A stretch of DNA of 64,000 nt, taken from contig CANRCD010000007.1 of NCBI GenBank assembly GCA_947629005.1, positions 1 to 64,000 on the forward strand, in the 5' to 3' direction. The notes under the pieces are model-generated. The model had not been told where the DNA came from and ran no database searches. It worked only from the letters and a program-made list of their open reading frames with translations. The DNA comes from an uncultured Clostridia bacterium. Lineage in GTDB: Bacteria > Bacillota > Clostridia > UMGS1883. The position numbers and the translations under genes were made by a program. Positions within the stretch are counted from its first letter, which is position 1; the number at the start of each line of letters is the position of its first letter. Below, piece by piece: positions 4,367-56,255 of this stretch.

Positions 4367-4867
4367 TTAAAACACTTTGCTCCGTGCGTAATTACGCATG
4401 GCGCTGAGGATACGGTCGTCGGGCTCGAAAATGAGCAGGTTGAGGCCGCCCTCGCCGGAAAACACCGCAAAACGCGCGTTCTCGGCCTTGGGAGACGAAG
4501 CCGCGTTAATGGTTTTGGCGAACTGGCGGCGCATTTCGGGACTTTTATCCGAATCGCTGACCGATGCGCAGAGTTCCATTGCGTCGAAATCAAAGCCGCA
4601 CAGCCGCCTGCGGCGGCGGCCGCCGATAATCTCATCCACGTCCAGATGGTCGGCGGTGACGGCGTACTCGTATTCGCGCCGAAGGCCGGTTATGAGCAGG
4701 AAGGCCGGATAACAGCCGAAAACCAGCACCACAAGGCCGCTGGCAATCCCTATCCACAAGGCCACCGCGCCCGATATGAACGCCAGAGCGAGGACGACGG
4801 CGGCTATTTTAGCCGCGTCGCCCGGGCCCGACTTCTTTTTTACAAGATAATCAACGTAATTTTCCAT
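4367..4867 (-). CDS. Small membrane protein, DUF6106-like
   Basis: 166 residues. It starts MENYVDYLVKKK, followed by two closely spaced hydrophobic segments (about 19-40 and 43-62) and then a soluble, charged C-terminal half. The arrangement resembles the clostridial DUF6106 family, which has no known function. Its ATG overlaps the PBP1A stop (TAATG at 4865-4869), so it is translationally coupled to PBP1A. A role near cell-wall synthesis is only an inference from that coupling. Confidence 0.75.
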   Translation of the reverse strand: MENYVDYLVKKKSGPGDAAKIAAVVLALAFISGAVALWIGIASGLVVLVFGCYPAFLLITGLRREYEYAVTADHLDVDEIIGGRRRRRLCGFDFDAMELCASVSDSDKSPEMRRQFAKTINAASSPKAENARFAVFSGEGGLNLLIFEPDDRILSAMRNYARSKVF

Positions 4868-7524
4868 TAAAGACCACCCTCGCTGGTCTGAACGTCGGCG
4901 GAGCTGCTTTCGCCGCCCGAGGAGGACGACGAGCCGGAGCTTTCGCCGCCGGACACGCTGCCGCTGCCGCCGCCCGAGGACGATGAACCGGAGCTTTCGC
5001 TGCCGCCGCCCGAGGACGATTCATCGGACGAACCGCCCGAACTGCCCGAGGACGACGAGCCGCCGGAGCCGCTGCCGGAGGATGAACCGCCGGAGCTTTC
5101 GCTGCCGGAGCCGCTGCCGCCGGAGGACGAACTGCCGCCCCCGTCCGAGCCGCCCGAGCTTACAGAGCTGTCAGAGCCGCCGTCATCCTCATCATCGCCG
5201 CCGGAGCCCTCGCCCCCTGAGCCGGACGAACTGCTTGAGGAGCTGCTTGAGGAGCTGCTTGAAGAGCTGTCGTCGTCCATGTCACTGTTGCTGCTTTCGG
5301 TTCTCTTTTTGGACGAGGACGACGAGGAGACTCCCTTGCCCTCGGAAAGAGTGGATTTTTTGGCGCCGAGCTTAAGCGGGTGCATCTCGCAGTATTTTGT
5401 GGGAGCCTTGCCGGGGGCGTACATCTCGCCCACAACGTGCTCGCAGTCGGGATAGGCGCGCTGGCCGCTTTCACGGCATATCATGACGGAAACCTCGTCG
5501 CTGCCGGGCTTTTCAAAGTCCTTGTATTCCAAATCTTCATGAACGGGAACCATAACCTTGCGCCAAGTCAGGGCCGCAGGATTGGAGTAGAAGCCGGTAA
5601 GGTCGCGGGGCTGGTCATAGCCGAACCAAACCGCGCCCACATAATAGGGCGTCATGCCGACGAACCAGCGGTCGTTGCTGGTGCTGGTGCCGGTGGTGCC
5701 GGTTTTGCCGGCTATCTCCATGCCTCGGAAGTTGGCCATGGTGCCGCTTCCGTAGCGGACAACGTCCTTAAGGAGGGAAAGCATATTATAGGCGGTGCGC
5801 TCGCTCATGGCTATCTCATGCGTGGGCTCGCCGTCGAGTACAACCTCGCCGTTGGCGTCAAGCACCTGAGTGTAAAGCATGGGCTTGTTATAGTAGCCGT
5901 CGTTGACGAAGGTACAGTAGGCGGCGGTGAGCTCAAGCACGCTGACGCCGTCGGTCAGGCCGCCCAGGGCAAGCGGGGCGAGGTCCTTATCGGAGAAAGT
6001 ATCGCCGTTTTCGTTTTCGCGGAAGTCCACAAGCGTGGAGATGTGCATACGCTCCACAAGATACTTGAACACGTTTTCCACGCCAAAATAGCGGCAGACC
6101 TTGACGGCCGGCACGTTGCGCGAGTTGGCCAGAGCGGCGCGGACGGTGACGTTGCCCACAAAGCGGTTATCCACGTTGTTGGGCGACCAGCCGCCGTAGG
6201 TGACCTTGGCGTCCTTGATGATGGTGTTGGCGTCGATGAGGCCGTACTCCATGGACGGGCCGTAAACCGCGATGGGCTTTATGGTGGAGCCGGGCTGGCG
6301 CAGAGACTGAGTGGCGCGGTTGAGCATACGGTTGCCCTCTTTATCGCCGCGGCCGCCCACAAGGGCTTTTACCTGCCCGCTGTAAGGGTCCATTATTACC
6401 ATGGCGGATTCGGGCTGTACATCTCCCCTGCCGCGCGGGAAGGCGGAAGCGTCGCTGTAGACGGCGTCCATCTTCTGCTGAACGGTCATATCCTGCGCGA
6501 GGTATATCTTGAGGCCGCCGTTAAACAGCACGCGGCTGGCGCGCTCCCTGCTGTAGCCGTACTTCTCCATCAGGTCCTTTTGAACCTGATCGATGGCGGC
6601 GTCCACGTAATAGCTCTGGTAGGCGACCTCCACCTCGGAGCGCTGCGGCATGAAATTGAGCTTTTCGGCTATGGCGTCCTCGTACTGAGACTGGGTTATC
6701 ATGCCCAGCTCGCGCATTTTGCCGAGAACGGTTTCCTGCCTCGTTTTATGGTCCTTGGGATTGATGTAGGGATTATAGCGAGTGGGCGACTGGGTGATTC
6801 CCGCGAGGCTGGCGCACTCGGCAAGCGTCAGGTCGGAAACAGGCTTGCCAAAGTATGTAGTCGCCGCGGAGCTCACGCCGTAGCACTGCTCGCTGAGGAA
6901 AATGGTATTGAGGTAATATTCGAGTATCTCATCCTTGCTGAGCTCGTTTTCGAGCCTATAGGCGCGGTATATCTCGCGGATTTTACGCGCTACGCCGTAG
7001 TCCTTCTCGTCGGTAAGGTTTTTGATGAGCTGCTGGGTTATGGTGCTGCCGCCGAAGGTGCGCTCGGATCTTCCGGCCAGCTTATTGTAGGCGTAGGTGA
7101 AGGTCGCGCCAACGGTACGCTTGACGTCAAAGCCGTGGTGCGAACGGAAGCGCTCGTCCTCGATGGCGACAAAGGCGTTTTGGAGGTTTTCGGGGATATC
7201 GTCAATATCCACCCAAATGCGGTTTTGGTCGTCGAAAAGCTGCTGAACTTCGACGGTCTCCCCCTCGGGATTGGTCGCATAAACGAAGGACGTCAGGTTT
7301 AGGCGCATATTGTCCACGTCTATGGGCTCGACGGTTTCCATGTAGCCGAACAAAGCGCCGGCAACAATGCCCGCGCCTATGGCGGCGATGAACAGTATTA
7401 TAAGCAGCACGGTCAGGAAGAAATTCCTCACCGCAAGGGCCATGACAGCCCCCGCGCCGCGCTTTTTTTTCTTTTTCGACTGCGCTCGGTTCTCCCTGCC
7501 CGCGCCGGTTTTATTAGGTTCCAT
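4867..7524 (-). CDS. Class A penicillin-binding protein (PBP1A type)
   Basis: 885 residues from the ATG at 7524, chosen for GGAGGT upstream; a frame to 7590 lacks a site. Order: Lys-rich cytoplasmic tail, one membrane anchor (about 26-62), glycosyltransferase family 51 domain with EDERFRSHHGFD (catalytic E122), GGSTITQQ and YYLNTIFL, then a transpeptidase domain with S413-T-I-K416, S468-R-N470 and K607-T-G-T. It polymerises and cross-links peptidoglycan at the outer membrane face. The last roughly 130 residues are almost pure Ser/Gly/Glu/Asp low complexity, beginning after KGVSSSSSS and ending DVQTSEGGL. All catalytic motifs are intact. Confidence 0.96.
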   Translation of the reverse strand: MEPNKTGAGRENRAQSKKKKKRGAGAVMALAVRNFFLTVLLIILFIAAIGAGIVAGALFGYMETVEPIDVDNMRLNLTSFVYATNPEGETVEVQQLFDDQNRIWVDIDDIPENLQNAFVAIEDERFRSHHGFDVKRTVGATFTYAYNKLAGRSERTFGGSTITQQLIKNLTDEKDYGVARKIREIYRAYRLENELSKDEILEYYLNTIFLSEQCYGVSSAATTYFGKPVSDLTLAECASLAGITQSPTRYNPYINPKDHKTRQETVLGKMRELGMITQSQYEDAIAEKLNFMPQRSEVEVAYQSYYVDAAIDQVQKDLMEKYGYSRERASRVLFNGGLKIYLAQDMTVQQKMDAVYSDASAFPRGRGDVQPESAMVIMDPYSGQVKALVGGRGDKEGNRMLNRATQSLRQPGSTIKPIAVYGPSMEYGLIDANTIIKDAKVTYGGWSPNNVDNRFVGNVTVRAALANSRNVPAVKVCRYFGVENVFKYLVERMHISTLVDFRENENGDTFSDKDLAPLALGGLTDGVSVLELTAAYCTFVNDGYYNKPMLYTQVLDANGEVVLDGEPTHEIAMSERTAYNMLSLLKDVVRYGSGTMANFRGMEIAGKTGTTGTSTSNDRWFVGMTPYYVGAVWFGYDQPRDLTGFYSNPAALTWRKVMVPVHEDLEYKDFEKPGSDEVSVMICRESGQRAYPDCEHVVGEMYAPGKAPTKYCEMHPLKLGAKKSTLSEGKGVSSSSSSKKRTESSNSDMDDDSSSSSSSSSSSSSSSGSGGEGSGGDDEDDGGSDSSVSSGGSDGGGSSSSGGSGSGSESSGGSSSGSGSGGSSSSGSSGGSSDESSSGGGSESSGSSSSGGGSGSVSGGESSGSSSSSGGESSSADVQTSEGGL

Positions 7525-7581
7525 ACTGGCAGCACCTCCGCTTTTCTTTAGAAACCTACACAAGTAACTTACACGTAATTT

Positions 7582-7610
7582 ATTATACAACTAAATAATT
7601 AAAAAAGTAT
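7582..7610 (-). promoter_or_regulatory. Possible promoter of the PBP1A operon
   Basis: A consensus TATAAT (7582-7587, minus strand) sits 58 bp before the PBP1A start. The hexamer 17 bp further upstream (ATACTT, 7605-7610) is a poor -35. The surrounding DNA is very AT-rich. Plausible but weak. Confidence 0.4.
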
Positions 7611-7735
7611 TACAAAAGCCTGAATTTATTCAAAATAACAAGCTTTCGGCTTAGATTTTTTGCATTTTGGCGATTTTTTCGTCATAACGTACAAAAATTG
7701 GAGCGTAAATATATGAAAATTGAACAAGTAGCCCC

Positions 7736-7764
7736 TTGCAAAACCGTTTGAACCGCGCTATAAT
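7736..7764 (+). promoter_or_regulatory. Promoter of sRNA copy 1
   Basis: TTGCAA (7736-7741), 17-bp spacer, TATAAT (7759-7764). The box TTGAACAAGT at 7720-7729 is repeated at the same distance in copy 2 and may bind a shared regulator. Confidence 0.75.
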
Positions 7765-7770
7765 ATAGAC

Positions 7771-7848
7771 GTACTCGAAAGAGTACCGAAACTTTTTTCA
7801 TTTTCCCTCCTTTTTAGTGGCAGACAGAGACGGTCTGCCATTTTTTTT
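7771..7848 (+). ncRNA. Small RNA, tandem copy 1
   Basis: Predicted transcript of about 78 nt. It opens with a perfect 6-bp hairpin GTACTC-GAAA-GAGTAC (7771-7786), has an unstructured U-rich middle with CCCTCC (7805-7810), and ends in a terminator with 8-bp arms TGGCAGAC/GTCTGCCA (7818-7840) and eight Ts. CCCTCC is complementary to the GGAGG-type ribosome sites used throughout the window, so base pairing with mRNA leaders is the likely mode of action. No open frame with a ribosome site is present. I do not recognise a named family. Confidence 0.7.
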
Positions 7849-8029
7849 GCGCCGTGCGCGGTCGGCGCTCCCGCGAAAGCGGCAAAGCCGATTTGCGGGG
7901 AAAAGGAGGAGCGGCGGAGCGCAATGCCTTGGGTCGGGAGGGGCAGAAAAAGGACAAAGCAAGGGATATTTTTGTATTATTTGCACAAAACTATGGCAAA
8001 ATTATTGTGGAATTTGAATAAGTTACCTC

Positions 8030-8058
8030 TTGTTTTGCGGGGCAAAAACGGCTATAAT
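8030..8058 (+). promoter_or_regulatory. Promoter of sRNA copy 2
   Basis: TTGTTT (8030-8035), 17-bp spacer, TATAAT (8053-8058). The box TTGAATAAGT at 8014-8023 has the same position relative to the -35 as in copy 1. Confidence 0.75.
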
Positions 8059-8064
8059 ATAAGC

Positions 8065-8144
8065 GTACTCGATGAGAGTACGAAACTTTTTTTCATTTTC
8101 CCTCCTTTTTTAGTGGCAGACAGCGCGTCTGCCATCTTTTTTTT
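8065..8144 (+). ncRNA. Small RNA, tandem copy 2
   Basis: Paralogue of the RNA at 7771, about 80 nt. It has the 5' hairpin GTACTC-GATGA-GAGTAC (8065-8081), CCCTCC at 8100-8105 in a U-rich linker, and terminator arms TGGCAGAC/GTCTGCCA (8114-8134) followed by TC and eight Ts. Stems and the C-rich tract are conserved with copy 1, while the hairpin loop and terminator loop differ. This is the pattern expected of a functional structured RNA. Confidence 0.7.
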
Positions 8145-8315: not shown

Positions 8316-8344
8316 TTGAAAAATGAGGAAATATGAGGTAAAAT
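8316..8344 (+). promoter_or_regulatory. Promoter of the DUF815-type ATPase
   Basis: TTGAAA (8316-8321), 17-bp spacer, TAAAAT (8339-8344), 33 bp before the ATG. Confidence 0.6.
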
Positions 8345-8376: not shown

Positions 8377-9564
8377 ATGAAAAAATACGAGGAACTGCAC
8401 AAAAAACTTACCTCGCTGACGGTGTTCCGCAGTCTGCTGGAACAGCCGGTAATGGCGAGGCTTACCGCGCTGCTGGGCGCGGAGGAGACGGACGGACTTA
8501 TTGAACCCTACTGCGCTCTTTTGCACGAGCTTTACAGGACAGGCGACAGTCTGGCGGATCGGATACTCTCCGCTCTGGCCGAGGACGAAAACATCTACGT
8601 AAGCTACGCGGCCGAGGGGCGCGAGGCCGGAGAGCCGATAAAATCCCGCCTTGCGGAGGAGCTGGCAATTCTGGGAGAGGCGGCCTCGCTTAGGTGCGAG
8701 GACGTTATTGCCGAGATCGGCGCCGACATACCGCTCCCCCGCTGGCGCGACGGAGCTCCGGACGTGGCGGCGTACTACAACGGGCGGCTGAACAGAATTG
8801 CGACAGAGGGATACGGCATCTTCGCGGCGTATCACGTTTTCCGCGCGGACGCCGAGGGCCGCCTCCTGCCCGTGCGCAGACCCGACCCGCAGCGGCTGAG
8901 CGAGCTTTACGGCTACGAAAATGAGCGCAGAAAGGTGCTTAAGAACACGCTGGCCCTCGTGGAGGGGCTTTCGGCCAACAACGTACTGCTTTACGGCGAC
9001 GCCGGCACGGGCAAGAGCAGCACCGTCAAGGCTGTGGTAAACGAGCTCAAGGACAGGGGGTTGCGGCTTATTGAGCTGCAAAAGAGCCAGCTTTTTCTGC
9101 TGCCGGACATAATGGACCGCCTCGAGGGCAGTCCGCTTAAATTCATCATTTTTATCGACGATCTGAGCTTTAACTCGGGCGACGGCGACTTTGCCGCGCT
9201 GAAGGCCATTCTTGAGGGAGGCGTCAGCAGCCGCGGCAGCAACGTGGCCGTCTACGCAACGAGCAACCGCCGCCATCTGGTGCGCGAGACCATGAGCGAG
9301 CGCGACGGCGACGACGTACACCTCTCCGACACGCTTCAGGAGCTTCAGAGCCTTTCGGCCCGCTTTGGACTGACGGTCACGTTCCTGCGGCCTGAAAAGG
9401 ACGTTTTTGCCGACATTGTGCTGAAGCTGGCCGAGGCGAAGGGAATTACCGCCGACAGGGACGAGCTGTGCCGCAGGGCCGAGGCATACGCCATACGCGC
9501 CGGAGGGCGGACGCCACGCGCCGCAAAGCAGTTTGTGGAGCTTGTCCGCGCGGGAGTGATGTAG
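8377..9564 (+). CDS. AAA-type ATPase, DUF815 family
   Basis: 395 residues, ATG at 8377 with GGGAG 9 nt upstream. The N-terminal about 190 residues are helical with no known motif. A P-loop ATPase core follows, with Walker A GDAGTGKS (207-214), Walker B FIIFIDDL (256-263), a sensor-like ATSNRR segment near 295 and a C-terminal lid near 345-395 (GGRTPRAAKQF). This matches the DUF815/YP-type ATPases, whose biological role is not established. It is a single-gene unit with its own promoter and a terminator at 9742. Confidence 0.85.
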   Translation: MKKYEELHKKLTSLTVFRSLLEQPVMARLTALLGAEETDGLIEPYCALLHELYRTGDSLADRILSALAEDENIYVSYAAEGREAGEPIKSRLAEELAILGEAASLRCEDVIAEIGADIPLPRWRDGAPDVAAYYNGRLNRIATEGYGIFAAYHVFRADAEGRLLPVRRPDPQRLSELYGYENERRKVLKNTLALVEGLSANNVLLYGDAGTGKSSTVKAVVNELKDRGLRLIELQKSQLFLLPDIMDRLEGSPLKFIIFIDDLSFNSGDGDFAALKAILEGGVSSRGSNVAVYATSNRRHLVRETMSERDGDDVHLSDTLQELQSLSARFGLTVTFLRPEKDVFADIVLKLAEAKGITADRDELCRRAEAYAIRAGGRTPRAAKQFVELVRAGVM

Positions 9565-15660: not shown

Positions 15661-18600
15661 TCAATAGTACTGATAGCTCCTAATCCACTGACATTCAAGG
15701 CCGGTGTTCCACACGGTGGTGCTGTCGGGCTCGCTCTCCCACGCGCCGATACCGGTGTTTATAATAAGGAACATATCCTTCTGGTAGCTGACGTCGCTGG
15801 TGCCGCGGCGGCTGAAGTACAGATTGCCGTTGACGTACATATCAATATAATCCCAGCCCCAGTCTATGCTGAAGGTGTTCCACTGGGTGCGCATATTGCC
15901 CACCGAGCTGTGATACATCCATCCCGCGCCCTCGTTGCCGCCGCCGTGGGTGGCGGTGTACCATGTGTTGGTGCCGTGGCTGGAAAGATACTCAAACATA
16001 TCGGTCTCGGGCGGCCAGCTGCCGTCGTGGTTCAGCCAAAAGGCCGTCCAGTAGCCGCGCGGGCTGTTGGGCTGCTTGAAGCTGCCCTCGATATAGCTTC
16101 CCTTATTATAGTGCTTGCTATTAACGCTGATAACGCCGGTGGTGGCGCAGTATTTTTTCCACTTTCCGCCGTTGATACTGTCGTTATAGCCGGTCTGACC
16201 GCTGGAATTGGTTATCCAATCGTCGCCGTCAACCTTCTCGGCCTTAAGCAGCACCCTGCCGCTCCCGACAACGACGTTCTTATCGCGGTGGACGGCGCTG
16301 TGGTTATGATGATCCGACCACCACGGGTAGCCCTTGTGCCACTGGCTGCTGAGAGTGCTGCCGTTGAACGAGTCGGAGACGTAGTTCTTCGACTCGTCGC
16401 GCAGGAAAAAGCTGCACGCGAGCTTCATTCCGTCGTCCCAGTTGCCGTCTTTGCTTGTCTTGGTTTCCACATAATTGCCGTTCACGCGCAGGTAGCGCGT
16501 GGGCTCGCGGTAGAGAGCGTAGGAATAATCGCCGTTCTTGCCGACCTTAGCCGTCTTGATAAAGGTGGCGTTGGTGCGGAAAGCATCCGTGTCTTTATAC
16601 CGCTGAACGGAGACCTCATTATTGGAGTTCACATACACATAGCAGCCCGGCTGGCCGATGAGCTCAAAGGACACGCCCTCGGGATCTATAAGGCCCCTGC
16701 GCTCGACAAAGCGGGTATAGAACGGGTTGACGCCGCTGGTGACGCCGAGCTTCGAATTGACGGTATTGGCGTTCACCACAAAGTAGCTCTGGCCCTTGCC
16801 GCCGCCGTTGGTATCGTAGGCGTCCTGAAGGCGGACGATGCCGTTAACCGCCGCCACGTTGGGCTTGGCGGGGCCGAGGTCTCTAACGGTGACGTTATCC
16901 ACGTAAATATCGCCCTTGCCGCCCGCGCCGGTGTTTATGATGAGGGTGTCGATAGGGGTTTTGCTCCAGTCGGCCGTCCAGCTGTCGTCCCCCTCGGTGG
17001 GCAGCGAGGCCGCGGCGGTTGAAATGGTACTGCCGTCCGTCACGCGGACGGAAAGGCTTTGGCCGGTGGGGTTATAGGTGAGCTCAAAATGCCACAGCGC
17101 GCCGTATTTGAGGCGGTTGCCGCCGGTACCGATAAAGGCGTTGTTGTCGCCCTTGTTATACTGAATCGAGGTGTTGCGGTTGAGCTGCATACCGTCATTT
17201 TGCGGGCTGAAGCGCATTTGAAGGGCCAGCGGATTTGTCTTGTCCGCGCCGCCGCTGTTATGGCCGTGCGCCAAGGCTATGCCGCCCCATTCGTCATGCG
17301 TGGGGGCGTACATATCAAAGCTGAGCTTGGTCAGGTTCTTCTCCGAAAAGCCGCCCAGATCGACGTAGGCGAAGGCTCCGCCCGCGCCGCGCGAGGAGTT
17401 TGTAGTCCGGCCCACAACGTCGTAAAGGTGGAGGGCCTTATCGGTTATGGCGCTGCTTGCGATATCGACGTAAAGCCCGCTGCCGAGGGAGGAGGTGTAA
17501 TTCGGGAAGTTATCCTCCTTTATGGCGGCGGCGGAAAGGCCGCTGCCGTTGTCCTTTTCTATGGCCCCGCTCATATCGTTGAAATCGTAGCTCTTGAGCA
17601 CGGTCCCCTCGTCCTCCGGCAGGCCGGCAATCTTGACGGAGAAGTCGTCGATATACATTTCGCACTTGCCGCCCGCACCGGTGTTGAACATTATATAATT
17701 AACATAGCTGTTCTTCCACGTCTGGCTCATGGTGCGCTCGTCGTTATACAGGCCGTAGCGCACAAAGGCGGATTCGGTCTTATCGCCGTCGGATACGGTG
17801 ACGATGACGGAGTCGGCCGAGGAGTCAACGTCGAGCACAACGTCCCACACGCAGTTGGCCTTAAAGGCCGTGCCGCCGCCCAGCAGGGTGGTCTGGCTGC
17901 CTTCGTTATAGGTGATGGAGCGCATGAGGTTGAAGCCCATTTTATTCTTGCCAGAGGGCGCGAGCCTAAGCTGGAGCGCCGCCGGATGAGAGGTGTCGTC
18001 CCCGCCGGTCACGCGGCCCGAGCTAAGCGTTACGCCGGCCCACTGGGCATTATATGTGCTGCCGTCGATGGTATTGGGCACGTACCACTTGAACTTGACG
18101 CGGTACTTATCGCCGGGGAGGGCCAGCTTGTGCGAGGCCCCTATGCTGCCCGCGCCCGCGCCCTTATCCTCACGGTCTACGTTATCGTAGAGGTGGAGGG
18201 CCATATTGCCGTCCTCGAAGCCCACGCCCGAGGGTGTGGGGGCTATATCGGCGTAAAGGCCGGAGCCGGTCGCGGGAGTATAGTCGGTATAAGTCATCTC
18301 GGGAAGGGCGGCGCTGGCCCAGCCGGCCTCGCCGAGGCTGCCCGCGGCGTTGAAGCTCTCGTCCTCGGCCACGGTCTCGCCCACGGCGGAGCCGTACGCC
18401 TCGAAGGCGGTAAGGCTGAACCAGTTGTCGCTGGCATCGTCATAGCCGTGGTCGGTGAGCTCTTTAGCCTTCCAGCCGTAGCCGACTATCTTCACATAGC
18501 GGGCGGCAAGATCGCCGGCGGGGAAATACTCGGTATAGGGCGAGGAGCCGGAGGAATAGCGTTTATATATGGCGGTGGTATATTCCGTTCCGTCCTCGGA

Positions 18601-21600
18601 TAGCTCGACGGCAAAGCCTGTGCTGCGCGAGCTGCCGCGATAGAAGCCAAGCCCGATGTTGTGCAGCTCGTAAACCGCGCCAAGGTCAACCACGGCCTCG
18701 ACGGGCTTTTCGTCGTTTGAGCCGACGGCGCCCTTAGTCTGGCCGGACCAGCGGGTGGAGGATTCGCGGTCAAGTATATTGACGGCCTCGTTGCCCTCCT
18801 GCTGATTGGAGCAGCTTATTATGCTGCGCTCTATAGCGGGCACAACTATCATCTCCGCGCCGTCGGGCTTGGGGAAGGCGCCCTCGGGATTGCGGGAATC
18901 GACCGCGCGGACGTAGGGATTCATGCCGTTTGTCTTATTCCAGAGGAAAATCAGGGTGTACTCGCCGCTTCCGAGAGCGGTATCCTTTTCATAGGATATG
19001 CGGGTATCGGGAAGGGCGGTCACGGTCTCGTCAGTTATGCCGAGCAGTCGGCCGTCCTCGCTGAAGCGGGCGATTATGACGTCGGCGGATATCTCCTCCT
19101 CGGTGCCGTTAATCAGCAGCGCATCGGAACGAGAGTAGGCCGTGCCATTCTCGTCCATAAGATTCTCTACCGCGGACGAGGCCGTAAGCTCAGGTACGCG
19201 GGCGCAGGAAAGATAGGCGTTCATGCCGTCGGTTTCCATGGTTATGGCGTCGGTTAGCTTTGCAAGGTCGCCCGCCGCGCCGTCATACACGCCGGTCACA
19301 ACAAACTCGCCGTCGAGCACGGAGCAGTCGGCCTCGGTCAGGCTGTAGGAGCTGCCGGCCTCAAGCTGCATTTCACGGGTCTCTATCTCATCGCCGCCGT
19401 TCATATAGTGCAGCGTAAGCGTGGCTCCCCTTCCCTGCACGGCGTAAAGCCGCGCGTCGCGGAAGAAGGCCAGCGTTTCGGGGAGAGTAAGCTCGGGAGC
19501 CGCGCCCTCGCCCTCGTCCTCGGGCACGGTGAAGAACAGCTCAACGCTGTCGCCCTCATTGAAGCCCGCAAGATATTCGAGGAAGGCTGCCTCGCTCATC
19601 TCGTTCATCAGGCCGTAAGCCGGAAGCGGGGGCGCGGGCTCAAGACCGCTGTCCTCGTCTTTGAGCATAAGGCCGGTCACAAGAACGTCGGCCGCGTAGG
19701 ATGGAGTTTCCGCAAGGCCCTTGGTAAATACGAGGCGGTAAGTCGCGCCGTTCTCAAGCGCAAAGGCGTTATCGGCGGGGAGCTGGCCCTCGCCGTAACA
19801 GGCCTCGCCCACGGTTATCTTGGCCTCGGCGCGGAAAAGTTCGGTATCGTCAACGTCGCCGTAAAGAGTGAAGGAACCCTTTTTGGCGTAGGTGCAAAAG
19901 TCCGCCTCGTCCCAGCGCCACGTTACGTTCTTGATTATGGGCGCGCCATTGTCGAGGTACGCCTTGACGCTCGTCGGGAGCTGGGGCCGCACGCCCCGTA
20001 TTGTGGCCGCGCCGCCGGCGGCGGAAAGCGCAGGCTCGGCGCGAACAATATCGCGCTTTGTATAGCGGGCGTAAATGTCGTTTTTATCCTGCGCGAGGCT
20101 CTTCAGGCAGAGGTTTTCGTCCGGCTCGGGGTTGCCCTTTACGCCGGAATCGACGCCGGAAGCGGCGGGCGCGGCCCCGCCGCCGTCCTCTATGACGGGC
20201 GGGTCAATCTCGTCAGGGTGTTCGGCCAGCCAGTCGTAAACGTAGTCGTAATAATATATGCAGCCGTCCTCGCCGCGTATGGATTCGGGCACGGCTCCGT
20301 CATAGGAGAAGGGCTTGCTGAGCTTGCCGAGCATATCAACGCTTTCGGCTATCTCACCGCCGTTCTCGTCCACGTAGTGGAGAGTGACGGGCGCGTATTT
20401 GACGTACTTTGCGGTGCGCAGGGAAGGAGCGGTATCCGAGGAGCCTTCCCTGTCGGTTACGTATGCGGCGCAGGTGTCGGCCTCAACCATGAAGGAAAGG
20501 TACTCGTCGTTCCTGTGGTCGCGCACATAGCCCGTCACGTCAAGGTCAACCCAGCCCTTTGTGGCTTTCGGCAGCTTGCGCGAGCTTATCAGCTCAGCCC
20601 CGTCAACGATATTCCTGGAGTTATTCCATGTGATTTCGCCCTCATCCCACGTATCGAGCTCCGCGGGTATGCCGTAGACGCTGTACGTGGGAGATGCGTC
20701 GTTGTCGATATGGTCAAAATAAAGGCGGAGCGAGGCGTTGACGATAGAGTTTACGTCCTCGCCTTTTTCGCCGCTGTATTCGTCGTGAATAATCTCATCG
20801 CCGAAGCCGCCGCCCTCAAAGCGGAGGAAGGCCTTGCGCTCGGTCCCCGCGTCGGTATTTGTTCCCGTTTTCGTGCCGGTTATGCGGAGCGCGGTTCCCT
20901 TTTCGGGCGCTTTGTCGTCCATGGGGTGGGCGTTATGAGGCGAGGTAGGCTCGCTTTCCACGATGAAAGTGTCGGCAAGGGCGGGACGGTCCTCGATATC
21001 GCCCTCCTCGATAAGCACAAGCTGATTGACCGGCCTGTTGCCGGGGACAAGCCTGCCGCCCACGCTGAACGAGCCCGCGGAGCCGTAGGCTGAGGAATCC
21101 ACCTCATCCCAGACAACGCCCATCGTGACGGTCGAATTGTCCTCAACGTCAACCGTCAGCGCGCGGGGAAGCGCGGGATAGACCCCGAGCGTGGTGCTTA
21201 AGGCGGGCATACGCACGCCGGTTATCTCAAGCACCTTTACGGTCACCTCTACCGCGTCGGTTTCTATGCCCTGAAGCTTGCCGCTGACCTTGAACTCGCC
21301 GCCCTCGGCGTAACTGCTCTCGGCAACGGCGTCCCACTTGACGGGATACGGCTGAACCGAGCCGTCGCTGAAGCGCACGTCAACGCTTTCGGGCAGCTTG
21401 GGCGCGTGGTACTGCACGGTGGTGACGGGACTGACAGGTACCGTGCCCTCGGGCAGCTTATCGGCGTATACGAGGGTTATCTCGGTGTCGCCGCTTATGG
21501 CGACGGGCAGCGGATTTTTACGCTCGGTCGCGGCCGCGTCGTATATCATGCCGTTTATTTTTTCGGGTATGTCGGGGGTGTAACGCTCGCCTATGGGCAG

Positions 21601-22905
21601 ACGCTCCATGAGCGGGCTTTTCAGCTCCTCGCCGGACGGGCCCTCATATTTGACGGTGACGGCGGCGGTCTTGCGGCGGATATAATCCACCTTGGGCGCG
21701 AAGCTCTCGCCGGCCTCGGATGAGTAAATATGGCTGACGGCGGTATCGGCGGTCAGCGCAAAGGCGTAAACGCCGTCGTCGGACGGGTGTTGGTTTATAT
21801 AATCCGTTATGTCGAGGGTGAAGTAGTCCAGCACGGCGGAGGAGTTGTTCGGTATTATGACCTTGGCCGCCGCCGTGCCGCTCACGGCGGGCTTATTGCC
21901 CCAGTTTACGGAGGACGCGGCCCAGTTTTTGTCTATGGGCGTAAGGCTAACGGTCTGATTTGCCTCGGCTATGCTGAGGGCGCGGAAGGTGAGCGCCGCT
22001 TTGTCGTAATGCAGGTTTTCGCCCTTGGGCAGGGAAAACTTTACGAAGGCGTTGCGCGTGTAAAGTGCGCCTGTCGAGCCGCCTATGGTCTTGTTTGCGG
22101 CTATGATCATTTCGGTCTCGGCCGAAAGGTCCTTGGCGCGGTTACCTTCGCTGTCCTCGGCGTAGGTATCCTCGGTGAGGGCAACGCAGCCGTACTCCGA
22201 CGAGGCGAGGGCCGGATCGCGGGTTATCTCAAGCGCGGGGCGCAAGGCGAAGGAGCCCGACTCGGAGGAATGAACGATAACGCCCGCCGCGCCGGCCTTT
22301 ACTCGCAGGGAAAAGCGAGTTTTTTTGTTTTCGCGTATATACCGCGTGAGGTCGGCGGTTATCTCCGCGCCGAGCTTTGCGCTGCCGCTGCCAAGCGGCC
22401 TTGACACCGCCGCTAGGCTTTCCGCTTTGGCGGCGGGAGCGTTATTCCATGTGAGGGCGGAGGCGCTCCAATTATCGCCTACCTCATAAAAGGCGAGCGC
22501 GGAGGCGGTAACGCCGTGTTTTTTGAAGTTTTCTATCATGGTTGAAGCGTCCGCCACATAGAGCTTCAGTACGGCGGAGGAAACCGTGCTCGGGTCTATA
22601 TCGCCGAGGTCAAAGCGCAAAAAGGCGTCGCGGCTGCGGCCCGCATCGCCGCGGTTCTCGCCGCCGACAAAGCCCGTTTCAACGGGAAGCGGGTTTTTGC
22701 TATTATAGCCTATCTCAAGAGTGGTTTTATCAGCGTTTACAGGCGTATCGGCGCTGTTTGCGTCAATGTATGTATCCTCCGACGGCGCAAGGCTCACCGT
22801 GGCGGCGTCCTCGGCCACGGCGCTCGGACCGGCGGGCGTGAACGCAGCAACCGAGCATACCAGCGTTACCGTGAGGATAAGGGCAAGCATTTTCCGTAAT
22901 TTCAT
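15661..22905 (-). CDS. Giant secreted modular GH16 glycoside hydrolase
   Basis: 2414 residues with a signal peptide (MKLRKMLALILTVTL, cleavage near 31). From the N-terminus I read: two DNRLRE-type beta domains (about 35-235 and 240-415), a MucBP-like segment (about 418-490), Big_4 Ig-like repeats (about 500-640), a third DNRLRE domain (about 650-840), more Ig-like and linker sequence, an F5/8C discoidin-like domain (about 1355-1509), and two tandem roughly 250-residue sandwich domains (1510-1767, 1768-2015) sharing ALHLYD and NTGAGGK. An AbfB/CBM42-like trefoil (about 2016-2174) and a C-terminal GH16 domain follow. The GH16 signature ExDxxE is intact as E2300, D2302, E2305. No sortase or S-layer anchor. 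The target polysaccharide (laminarin, agar or similar) cannot be told from sequence. Confidence 0.88.
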   Translation of the reverse strand: MKLRKMLALILTVTLVCSVAAFTPAGPSAVAEDAATVSLAPSEDTYIDANSADTPVNADKTTLEIGYNSKNPLPVETGFVGGENRGDAGRSRDAFLRFDLGDIDPSTVSSAVLKLYVADASTMIENFKKHGVTASALAFYEVGDNWSASALTWNNAPAAKAESLAAVSRPLGSGSAKLGAEITADLTRYIRENKKTRFSLRVKAGAAGVIVHSSESGSFALRPALEITRDPALASSEYGCVALTEDTYAEDSEGNRAKDLSAETEMIIAANKTIGGSTGALYTRNAFVKFSLPKGENLHYDKAALTFRALSIAEANQTVSLTPIDKNWAASSVNWGNKPAVSGTAAAKVIIPNNSSAVLDYFTLDITDYINQHPSDDGVYAFALTADTAVSHIYSSEAGESFAPKVDYIRRKTAAVTVKYEGPSGEELKSPLMERLPIGERYTPDIPEKINGMIYDAAATERKNPLPVAISGDTEITLVYADKLPEGTVPVSPVTTVQYHAPKLPESVDVRFSDGSVQPYPVKWDAVAESSYAEGGEFKVSGKLQGIETDAVEVTVKVLEITGVRMPALSTTLGVYPALPRALTVDVEDNSTVTMGVVWDEVDSSAYGSAGSFSVGGRLVPGNRPVNQLVLIEEGDIEDRPALADTFIVESEPTSPHNAHPMDDKAPEKGTALRITGTKTGTNTDAGTERKAFLRFEGGGFGDEIIHDEYSGEKGEDVNSIVNASLRLYFDHIDNDASPTYSVYGIPAELDTWDEGEITWNNSRNIVDGAELISSRKLPKATKGWVDLDVTGYVRDHRNDEYLSFMVEADTCAAYVTDREGSSDTAPSLRTAKYVKYAPVTLHYVDENGGEIAESVDMLGKLSKPFSYDGAVPESIRGEDGCIYYYDYVYDWLAEHPDEIDPPVIEDGGGAAPAASGVDSGVKGNPEPDENLCLKSLAQDKNDIYARYTKRDIVRAEPALSAAGGAATIRGVRPQLPTSVKAYLDNGAPIIKNVTWRWDEADFCTYAKKGSFTLYGDVDDTELFRAEAKITVGEACYGEGQLPADNAFALENGATYRLVFTKGLAETPSYAADVLVTGLMLKDEDSGLEPAPPLPAYGLMNEMSEAAFLEYLAGFNEGDSVELFFTVPEDEGEGAAPELTLPETLAFFRDARLYAVQGRGATLTLHYMNGGDEIETREMQLEAGSSYSLTEADCSVLDGEFVVTGVYDGAAGDLAKLTDAITMETDGMNAYLSCARVPELTASSAVENLMDENGTAYSRSDALLINGTEEEISADVIIARFSEDGRLLGITDETVTALPDTRISYEKDTALGSGEYTLIFLWNKTNGMNPYVRAVDSRNPEGAFPKPDGAEMIVVPAIERSIISCSNQQEGNEAVNILDRESSTRWSGQTKGAVGSNDEKPVEAVVDLGAVYELHNIGLGFYRGSSRSTGFAVELSEDGTEYTTAIYKRYSSGSSPYTEYFPAGDLAARYVKIVGYGWKAKELTDHGYDDASDNWFSLTAFEAYGSAVGETVAEDESFNAAGSLGEAGWASAALPEMTYTDYTPATGSGLYADIAPTPSGVGFEDGNMALHLYDNVDREDKGAGAGSIGASHKLALPGDKYRVKFKWYVPNTIDGSTYNAQWAGVTLSSGRVTGGDDTSHPAALQLRLAPSGKNKMGFNLMRSITYNEGSQTTLLGGGTAFKANCVWDVVLDVDSSADSVIVTVSDGDKTESAFVRYGLYNDERTMSQTWKNSYVNYIMFNTGAGGKCEMYIDDFSVKIAGLPEDEGTVLKSYDFNDMSGAIEKDNGSGLSAAAIKEDNFPNYTSSLGSGLYVDIASSAITDKALHLYDVVGRTTNSSRGAGGAFAYVDLGGFSEKNLTKLSFDMYAPTHDEWGGIALAHGHNSGGADKTNPLALQMRFSPQNDGMQLNRNTSIQYNKGDNNAFIGTGGNRLKYGALWHFELTYNPTGQSLSVRVTDGSTISTAAASLPTEGDDSWTADWSKTPIDTLIINTGAGGKGDIYVDNVTVRDLGPAKPNVAAVNGIVRLQDAYDTNGGGKGQSYFVVNANTVNSKLGVTSGVNPFYTRFVERRGLIDPEGVSFELIGQPGCYVYVNSNNEVSVQRYKDTDAFRTNATFIKTAKVGKNGDYSYALYREPTRYLRVNGNYVETKTSKDGNWDDGMKLACSFFLRDESKNYVSDSFNGSTLSSQWHKGYPWWSDHHNHSAVHRDKNVVVGSGRVLLKAEKVDGDDWITNSSGQTGYNDSINGGKWKKYCATTGVISVNSKHYNKGSYIEGSFKQPNSPRGYWTAFWLNHDGSWPPETDMFEYLSSHGTNTWYTATHGGGNEGAGWMYHSSVGNMRTQWNTFSIDWGWDYIDMYVNGNLYFSRRGTSDVSYQKDMFLIINTGIGAWESEPDSTTVWNTGLECQWIRSYQYY

Positions 22906-56179: not shown

Positions 56180-56255
<76 letters not shown>

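Follow-up and report, generated by a model that had tools for sequence, protein, structure and literature searches.

The 64,000-nucleotide stretch of Clostridia DNA analysed here (the window) carries two stand-alone tandem units on the plus strand, at 7771-7848 and 8065-8142, which are almost certainly genuine small RNA (sRNA) genes, judging from their sequence. They occupy an intergenic site between a divergent penicillin-binding-protein gene (4867-7590, minus strand) and an AAA-ATPase-like gene (8377-9564, plus strand); gene names, in the window and in its relatives, were read from translations. The two copies lie 294-295 bp from each other and share about 87% identity across the transcribed part. 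Each unit has the same layout: a sigma-A-type promoter (TTGNNN-17-TATAAT), a 6-bp 5' hairpin, an unpaired pyrimidine-rich CCCTCC stretch and a strong terminator. The elements are distributed as follows (SD, Shine-Dalgarno).

7676..7696, no strand: copy 1 upstream palindromic operator-like element TTTTCGTCATAACGTACAAAA, left half degenerate, 13/18 match to TTTTGTGCA-N3-TGCACAAAA
7720-7729: copy 1 local box TTGAACAAGT, read in the sequence
7736..7764, plus strand: copy 1 promoter TTGCAA - 17 - TATAAT, -35 at 7736-7741 and -10 at 7759-7764
7771..7786, plus strand: copy 1 5' hairpin GTACTC-GAAA-GAGTAC, from the fold, stem retained family-wide
7789..7815, plus strand: copy 1 single-stranded conserved core AAACTTTTTTCATTTTCCCTCCTTTTT, antisense to SD-AUG-Lys-Lys, from alignments and pairing tests
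7805-7810, plus strand: copy 1 CCCTCC tract, within the core
7816..7848, plus strand: copy 1 intrinsic terminator AGTGGCAGAC...GTCTGCCATT (7816-7842) plus T run
7970..7990, no strand: copy 2 upstream palindromic element TTTTGTATTATTTGCACAAAA, 15/18 match
8014-8023: copy 2 local box TTGAATAAGT, read in the sequence
8030..8058, plus strand: copy 2 promoter TTGTTT - 17 - TATAAT, -35 at 8030-8035 and -10 at 8053-8058
8065..8081, plus strand: copy 2 5' hairpin GTACTC-GATGA-GAGTAC, from the fold, stem retained family-wide
8083..8111, plus strand: copy 2 conserved core AAACTTTTTTTCATTTTCCCTCCTTTTTT, from alignments of 22 and 49 copies
8100-8105, plus strand: copy 2 CCCTCC tract, within the core
8112..8142, plus strand: copy 2 intrinsic terminator, stem 8113-8135 plus T run, from the fold

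The folding energies of copies 1 and 2 beat those of all 200 dinucleotide shuffles (z -3.8 and -3.1), and CCCTCC is unpaired in the predicted fold. The first-pass annotation had described tandem paralogous sRNA genes with a 17-bp-spaced promoter, a GTACTC/GAGTAC hairpin, an unpaired CCCTCC and a terminator. All these elements are present in both copies, and the description is borne out by the recurrence of the family in related genomes (below). Both genes are presumably transcribed. The penicillin-binding protein encoded next to them has a very long Ser/Gly-rich low-complexity C-terminal tail.

We refer to the taxonomic family of the window as f1, to a sister family in the same order as f3 and to two Clostridia families outside the order as f18 and f62. 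A BLAST search with copy 2 found matches in 18 of the 21 f1 genomes, representing four of five genera, and a covariance model built from 22 distinct copies added the genome G016, bringing the count to 19 of 21. Over 391 Clostridia genomes the matches of this model were confined to f1 and two genomes of a same-order sister family. A pattern consisting of the core alone was present in 19 of 391 Clostridia genomes, including four from f3, three from f18 and one from f62. Follow-up searches recovered it in 4/16 genomes of f18 and 13/20 of f62; in the latter family the context is sRNA-like in 12 of the 13 (G438 excepted) and one genome, G269, has a second sRNA copy. A phylum-wide scan of 398 genomes for the core with at most one mismatch, in a sample with few or no members of the positive families, returned the window's own genome only, and the viral contigs searched gave no match. 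The named f1 contigs with matches belong to MAGs of gut origin, and the hosts include rabbit, sheep, goat, roe deer and water buffalo.

Tandem pairs are found in most members of the genus and in G008. The duplication had been taken as a hint of dosage or separate regulation; it is indeed frequent within the genus, but in other genera one copy is the rule and dosage is no general feature of the family. The gene order penicillin-binding protein, sRNA or sRNAs, ATPase is constant within the genus. Outside it no conserved neighbour was found, and the gene that follows often has the opposite orientation; therefore, we regard the unit as a stand-alone gene and not a leader. At the sequence level, the core has its own promoter and terminator in all clades.

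Within f1, where copies were gathered by whole-gene BLAST and the covariance model, the 22-copy alignment contains a nearly invariant 26-27-nt core, AAACTTTTTTCATTTTCCCTCCTTTT, set among variable loops and flanks. In the stems 95.2% of cells pair, a level that none of 500 shuffles reached, and compensatory changes preserve the 5' stem both family-wide and in L052, a divergent copy, as anticipated by the early remark that stems are kept while loops differ. The divergent copy of G016 has rebuilt the 5' stem as GTCTC/GAGAC and shortened CCCTCC to CCCC, with CTTTTTTCATTTT kept. In f3, f18 and f62 the hairpins and the terminator are unrelated to those of f1, and the 5' part is either a different hairpin or an unstructured ACCAAACACAACAAAC-type leader, while the core CTTTTTTCATTTTCCCTCCTTT and the promoter layout recur. 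The core alignment extended beyond f1 comprises 49 copies from four families, and the conservation that it displays outside f1 is inflated, as an exact or one-mismatch core was the search query; the recurrence of a promoter, a terminator and, in f18 and f62, an operator around the core was not produced by this bait. The 22-nt core contains a single purine.

The operator is a palindrome, TTTTGTGCA-N3-TGCACAAAA. When a single scoring rule was used to call the promoters, 41 of the 45 in f1, f18 and f62 combined had the centre of this palindrome 79+/-1 bp upstream of the -10 end. In the window the distance is 79 bp for both copies. At f3 promoters called by the same rule the palindrome match is not convincing. 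A fixed spacing this far upstream suggests an activator near -86, and the palindrome is thus a candidate site for a putative dedicated activator. The first-pass annotation did not include this element and had instead pointed to a regulator-like box, TTGAAYAAGT. The box is present in the window, but it is a weak genus-level feature that varies in sister species (counterparts TTAAACAAA, TGTAATAAA and CTGACAAAA); the widely conserved upstream element is the palindrome. Two genomes, G004 and G007, have a third, non-tandem copy (L062, G004:C4:152421-152527; L064, G007:C104:6987-7094) with an extra GGCGCTGTTTTGAATGGCGC-like hairpin before the terminator, in which the best palindrome match is 33 bp nearer the promoter (46 vs 79). 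Palindromes also occur elsewhere. The form TTTTGTGCCCTTTGCATAAAA is present in three genus members (L119, L124 and G007:C15:7704-7724), at L119 and L124 just upstream of a gene reading as RNase Y; perfect or near-perfect palindromes (L123:1501-1521, L135:217-237) lie ahead of strong promoters, one belonging to a tRNA gene and the other to what looks like a further RNA gene, and other sites stand before exported-protein genes. The element may serve a wider regulator. No common theme emerged among these other sites to identify that regulator, and a literature search gave no name.

When all 4227 families of Rfam 15 were compared with the window, only the tRNA at 56180 reached the gathering threshold. 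The best sub-threshold sRNA scores for the two copies (E<=10) were 20 bits (E 1.7) for NmsRb (RF02877) against a gathering value of 52 and 18.2 for RsaOG against 50. The RsaE/RoxS model matched neither copy even at E<=10, and LhrC had no entry among the Rfam matches up to E 10. The initial statement that the RNA could be assigned to no known family, for which this search had been named in advance as the test, therefore stands. A literature search of open-access papers, with incomplete coverage, found no description of this sRNA. By model score it is a member of none of RsaE/RoxS, LhrC and NmsR, and it appears to constitute a new family within the C-rich anti-SD kind.

What might the core recognize? 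Its reverse complement, AAAAGGAGGGAAAATGAAAAAAG, reads as an SD (GGAGG), a short spacer, AUG and two Lys codons. The gap between GGAGG and ATG is 6-9 nt in real genes of this genome versus 4 nt in the core complement, and in the predicted duplexes about 4 nt of the mRNA spacer are bulged out with pairing on both sides. An ungapped search of the own genome for the 21-nt complement with up to 3 mismatches returned only the sRNA genes themselves; therefore, the core suits a class of starts rather than one mRNA. Pairing was computed for 687 genes called from ~0.85 Mb of the own genome, using gene calls made in-house and a simple duplex model that ignores accessibility, which limits the ranking of targets. 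The mean duplex energy of the core is -12.6 kcal/mol with the 687 start regions and -8.1 inside genes. When the 5' half (AAACUUUUUUCAUUUU) was shuffled and CCCUCC kept, 1/150 shuffles achieved as good a mean pairing and 2/150 as good a top-20 pairing, and changing or removing CAT weakens pairing with start regions. A core variant with a 3-nt longer spacer pairs better, so the actual core is good and not optimal. On these predictions, pairing of the sRNA with start regions is likely. The pairing of CCCTCC with GGAGG ribosome sites proposed at the outset is sound in that the tract can form it, but too narrow, as the antisense stretch spans ~22-26 nt and includes AUG and Lys-Lys. A general tuning of AAAC to a fourth Val codon was discarded: among the alternatives, AAAC came second in G012 and was one of the lowest-ranked in both the own genome and G004.

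The predicted targets have a secretome theme, with exported proteins called by a crude signal-peptide rule. In the own genome 11 of the 20 top targets have signal peptides versus a background of 17% (OR 6.5, p 9e-5); an SD-only probe gives a weaker result than the full core (6/20, p 0.13). Enrichment is also seen among the best targets of G012 (11/17; OR 12, p 3e-6), several of which have MKKVLS starts in proteins of 636 to 1679 residues, and in f62 (p 0.04); in G004 it is not significant (p 0.13). Top-ranked start regions include that of a 1368-aa protein beginning MKKFLSLVV (L175:3765), that at L195:14352 and, in G012, that of a protein beginning MKKVLSLVL (L245). It arises partly because MKK starts are typical of exported proteins: 40 of the 49 ATG-start MKK genes in the own sample have a signal peptide. 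Some strong predicted targets are not exported, among them apparent guanylate kinase, rpsG and ispE genes. The theme seems real in sequence space, and it is plausible, at a little under an even chance, that exported proteins would be the main targets. Within the window, the minus-strand gene at 15661-22905 specifies an exported protein of 2414 residues (MKLRKMLALILTV...); its start region, GGAGGGAAATAATATGAAA, ranks 56th of the 687 and is thus predicted to be a moderate target.

Based on these observations, we propose that the RNA is a trans-acting anti-SD/anti-AUG repressor of ~75-80 nt under a candidate dedicated activator, a reading that we consider fairly probable. Gene anatomy, conservation, fixed operator spacing, the antisense relation and orientation-dependent pairing were computed here; repression and activation are what we infer. 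An activator bound at the palindrome near -86 would switch on transcription of the sRNA. The 5' hairpin and the terminator would guard the RNA and leave the core between them exposed, so that 5'-CUUUUUUCAUUUUCCCUCCUUUU-3' could pair with AAAAGGAGG-(looped spacer)-AAAAUGAAAAAAG in the mRNA. With the SD, the start codon and the first Lys codons covered, binding of the 30S subunit would be stopped on many mRNAs, best pairing being expected on those of exported proteins starting Met-Lys-Lys, and the paired mRNA would probably be degraded. Hfq might help where present: its gene was found in the own genome and in the majority of the f1 relatives but not in f3, and therefore Hfq may assist but would not be essential everywhere. 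In its boldest form, which we put forward tentatively and on balance would not bet on, the model describes an sRNA family with a dedicated activator at a fixed -86 site and a near-universal secretome-start antisense that throttles exported proteins as a class.

An alternative explanation is a plain C-rich anti-SD sRNA with few specific metabolic targets, like RsaE and NmsR, in which CAT and U6 would only stabilise pairing unspecifically and the secretome theme would fall away. In its favour are the weak signal-peptide enrichment already given by the SD-only probe and the presence of non-exported genes among the strong predicted targets; however, CAT and the U run show the same invariance as CCCTCC, and G016, with its CCCUCC shortened to CCCC, yet keeps CUUUUUUCAUUUU. 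We consider this explanation unlikely, if a genuine contender. The invariance of a tract with a single purine among 22 nt could also be that of a protein site, for Hfq, which is present in f1, or for a cold-shock or other RNA-binding protein, with the RNA acting as a sponge or scaffold. The core nevertheless persists in f3, where Hfq was not found, its order fits the start region better than 148-149 of 150 5'-half shuffles, and part of the tract is hairpinned in f18 and f62, all of which make a protein site improbable.

Two readings that dispense with a trans-acting RNA have very little to recommend them. The first, a conserved leader peptide (GGAGG...ATGAAAAAA) read from the minus strand, with incidental plus-strand features, is prompted by the SD and Met-Lys-Lys of the complement; we rejected it, as the minus-strand frames, of 4 to 101 codons, are unrelated in sequence, the frame shifts with the length of the T run (6 or 7), the SD-AUG gap of the complement (4 nt) is below the usual 6-9, and promoter, operator and terminator consistently lie on the plus strand. 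A cis-acting leader or attenuator of the downstream gene, to which we likewise attach almost no probability, would agree with the next gene being on the same strand in some clades. It is contradicted by the neighbour analysis: different clades have unrelated genes downstream, in many cases in reverse orientation (L065, L142 and L144), and the gene that follows in the window is preceded by a promoter-like site of its own (8316-8344).

How does the proposed anti-SD/anti-AUG repressor compare with known systems? The anti-SD at the 3' end of 16S rRNA is ...CCUCCUUU...; the CCUCCUUU of the core equals it and can therefore compete for the same mRNA site, while the sRNA adds anti-AUG and anti-Lys-codon sequence beyond it. 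Most known C-rich sRNAs of Firmicutes have short anti-SD patches and a handful of target genes. In Listeria, the multicopy LhrC1-5 sRNAs (111-114 nt) use redundant short CU-rich UCCC motifs that bind SD regions, are activated by LisR under envelope stress via an element upstream of -53, and target the cell-surface protein and adhesin LapB (PMC4132741). The family described here resembles LhrC in its multiple copies, its predicted UCCC-type anti-SD pairing and its candidate upstream activator element, but in place of redundant motifs it has one ~22-nt core of different sequence running through the SD, AUG and codons 2-3. RsaE/RoxS of Staphylococcus and Bacillus also pairs C-rich regions with SD sequences and has a conserved ResD box near -65 of its promoter (PMC4409812). 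The unpaired C-rich region complementary to the SD and the conserved box upstream of the promoter are shared features; RsaE/RoxS, however, has several C-rich regions and another fold, whereas here one CCCTCC is joined to CAT and U6 and the upstream element is a palindrome near -86. The Neisseria siblings NmsRA/NmsRB (RcoF, RF02877) are likewise a tandem pair with UC-rich single-stranded anti-SD regions; they differ in being proteobacterial and in having three stem-loops, and the available part of their description mentions no antisense start codon (PMC5362039).

What appears to be new is a long contiguous start-region antisense that is fixed across four Clostridia families while its surroundings change. 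If confirmed, it would be a recognisable post-transcriptional regulator in uncultured gut Clostridia and would suggest that targets can be chosen by protein class, here exported proteins, through their common start codons. The core motif and the operator, the latter conserved at fixed spacing in three families, would offer handles for finding the regulator. Were the exported-protein reading true, the sRNA would play in a Gram-positive setting the part that envelope-stress sRNAs have in Gram-negative bacteria, where they shut down outer-membrane proteins. At the f18 and f62 loci (L139-L141, L211-L219) the core is followed by AAAGGAA, which can pair with its UCCUUU; in the predicted structure the anti-SD half sits in a small hairpin and much of CUUUUUUCAUUUU is open, a possible gate.
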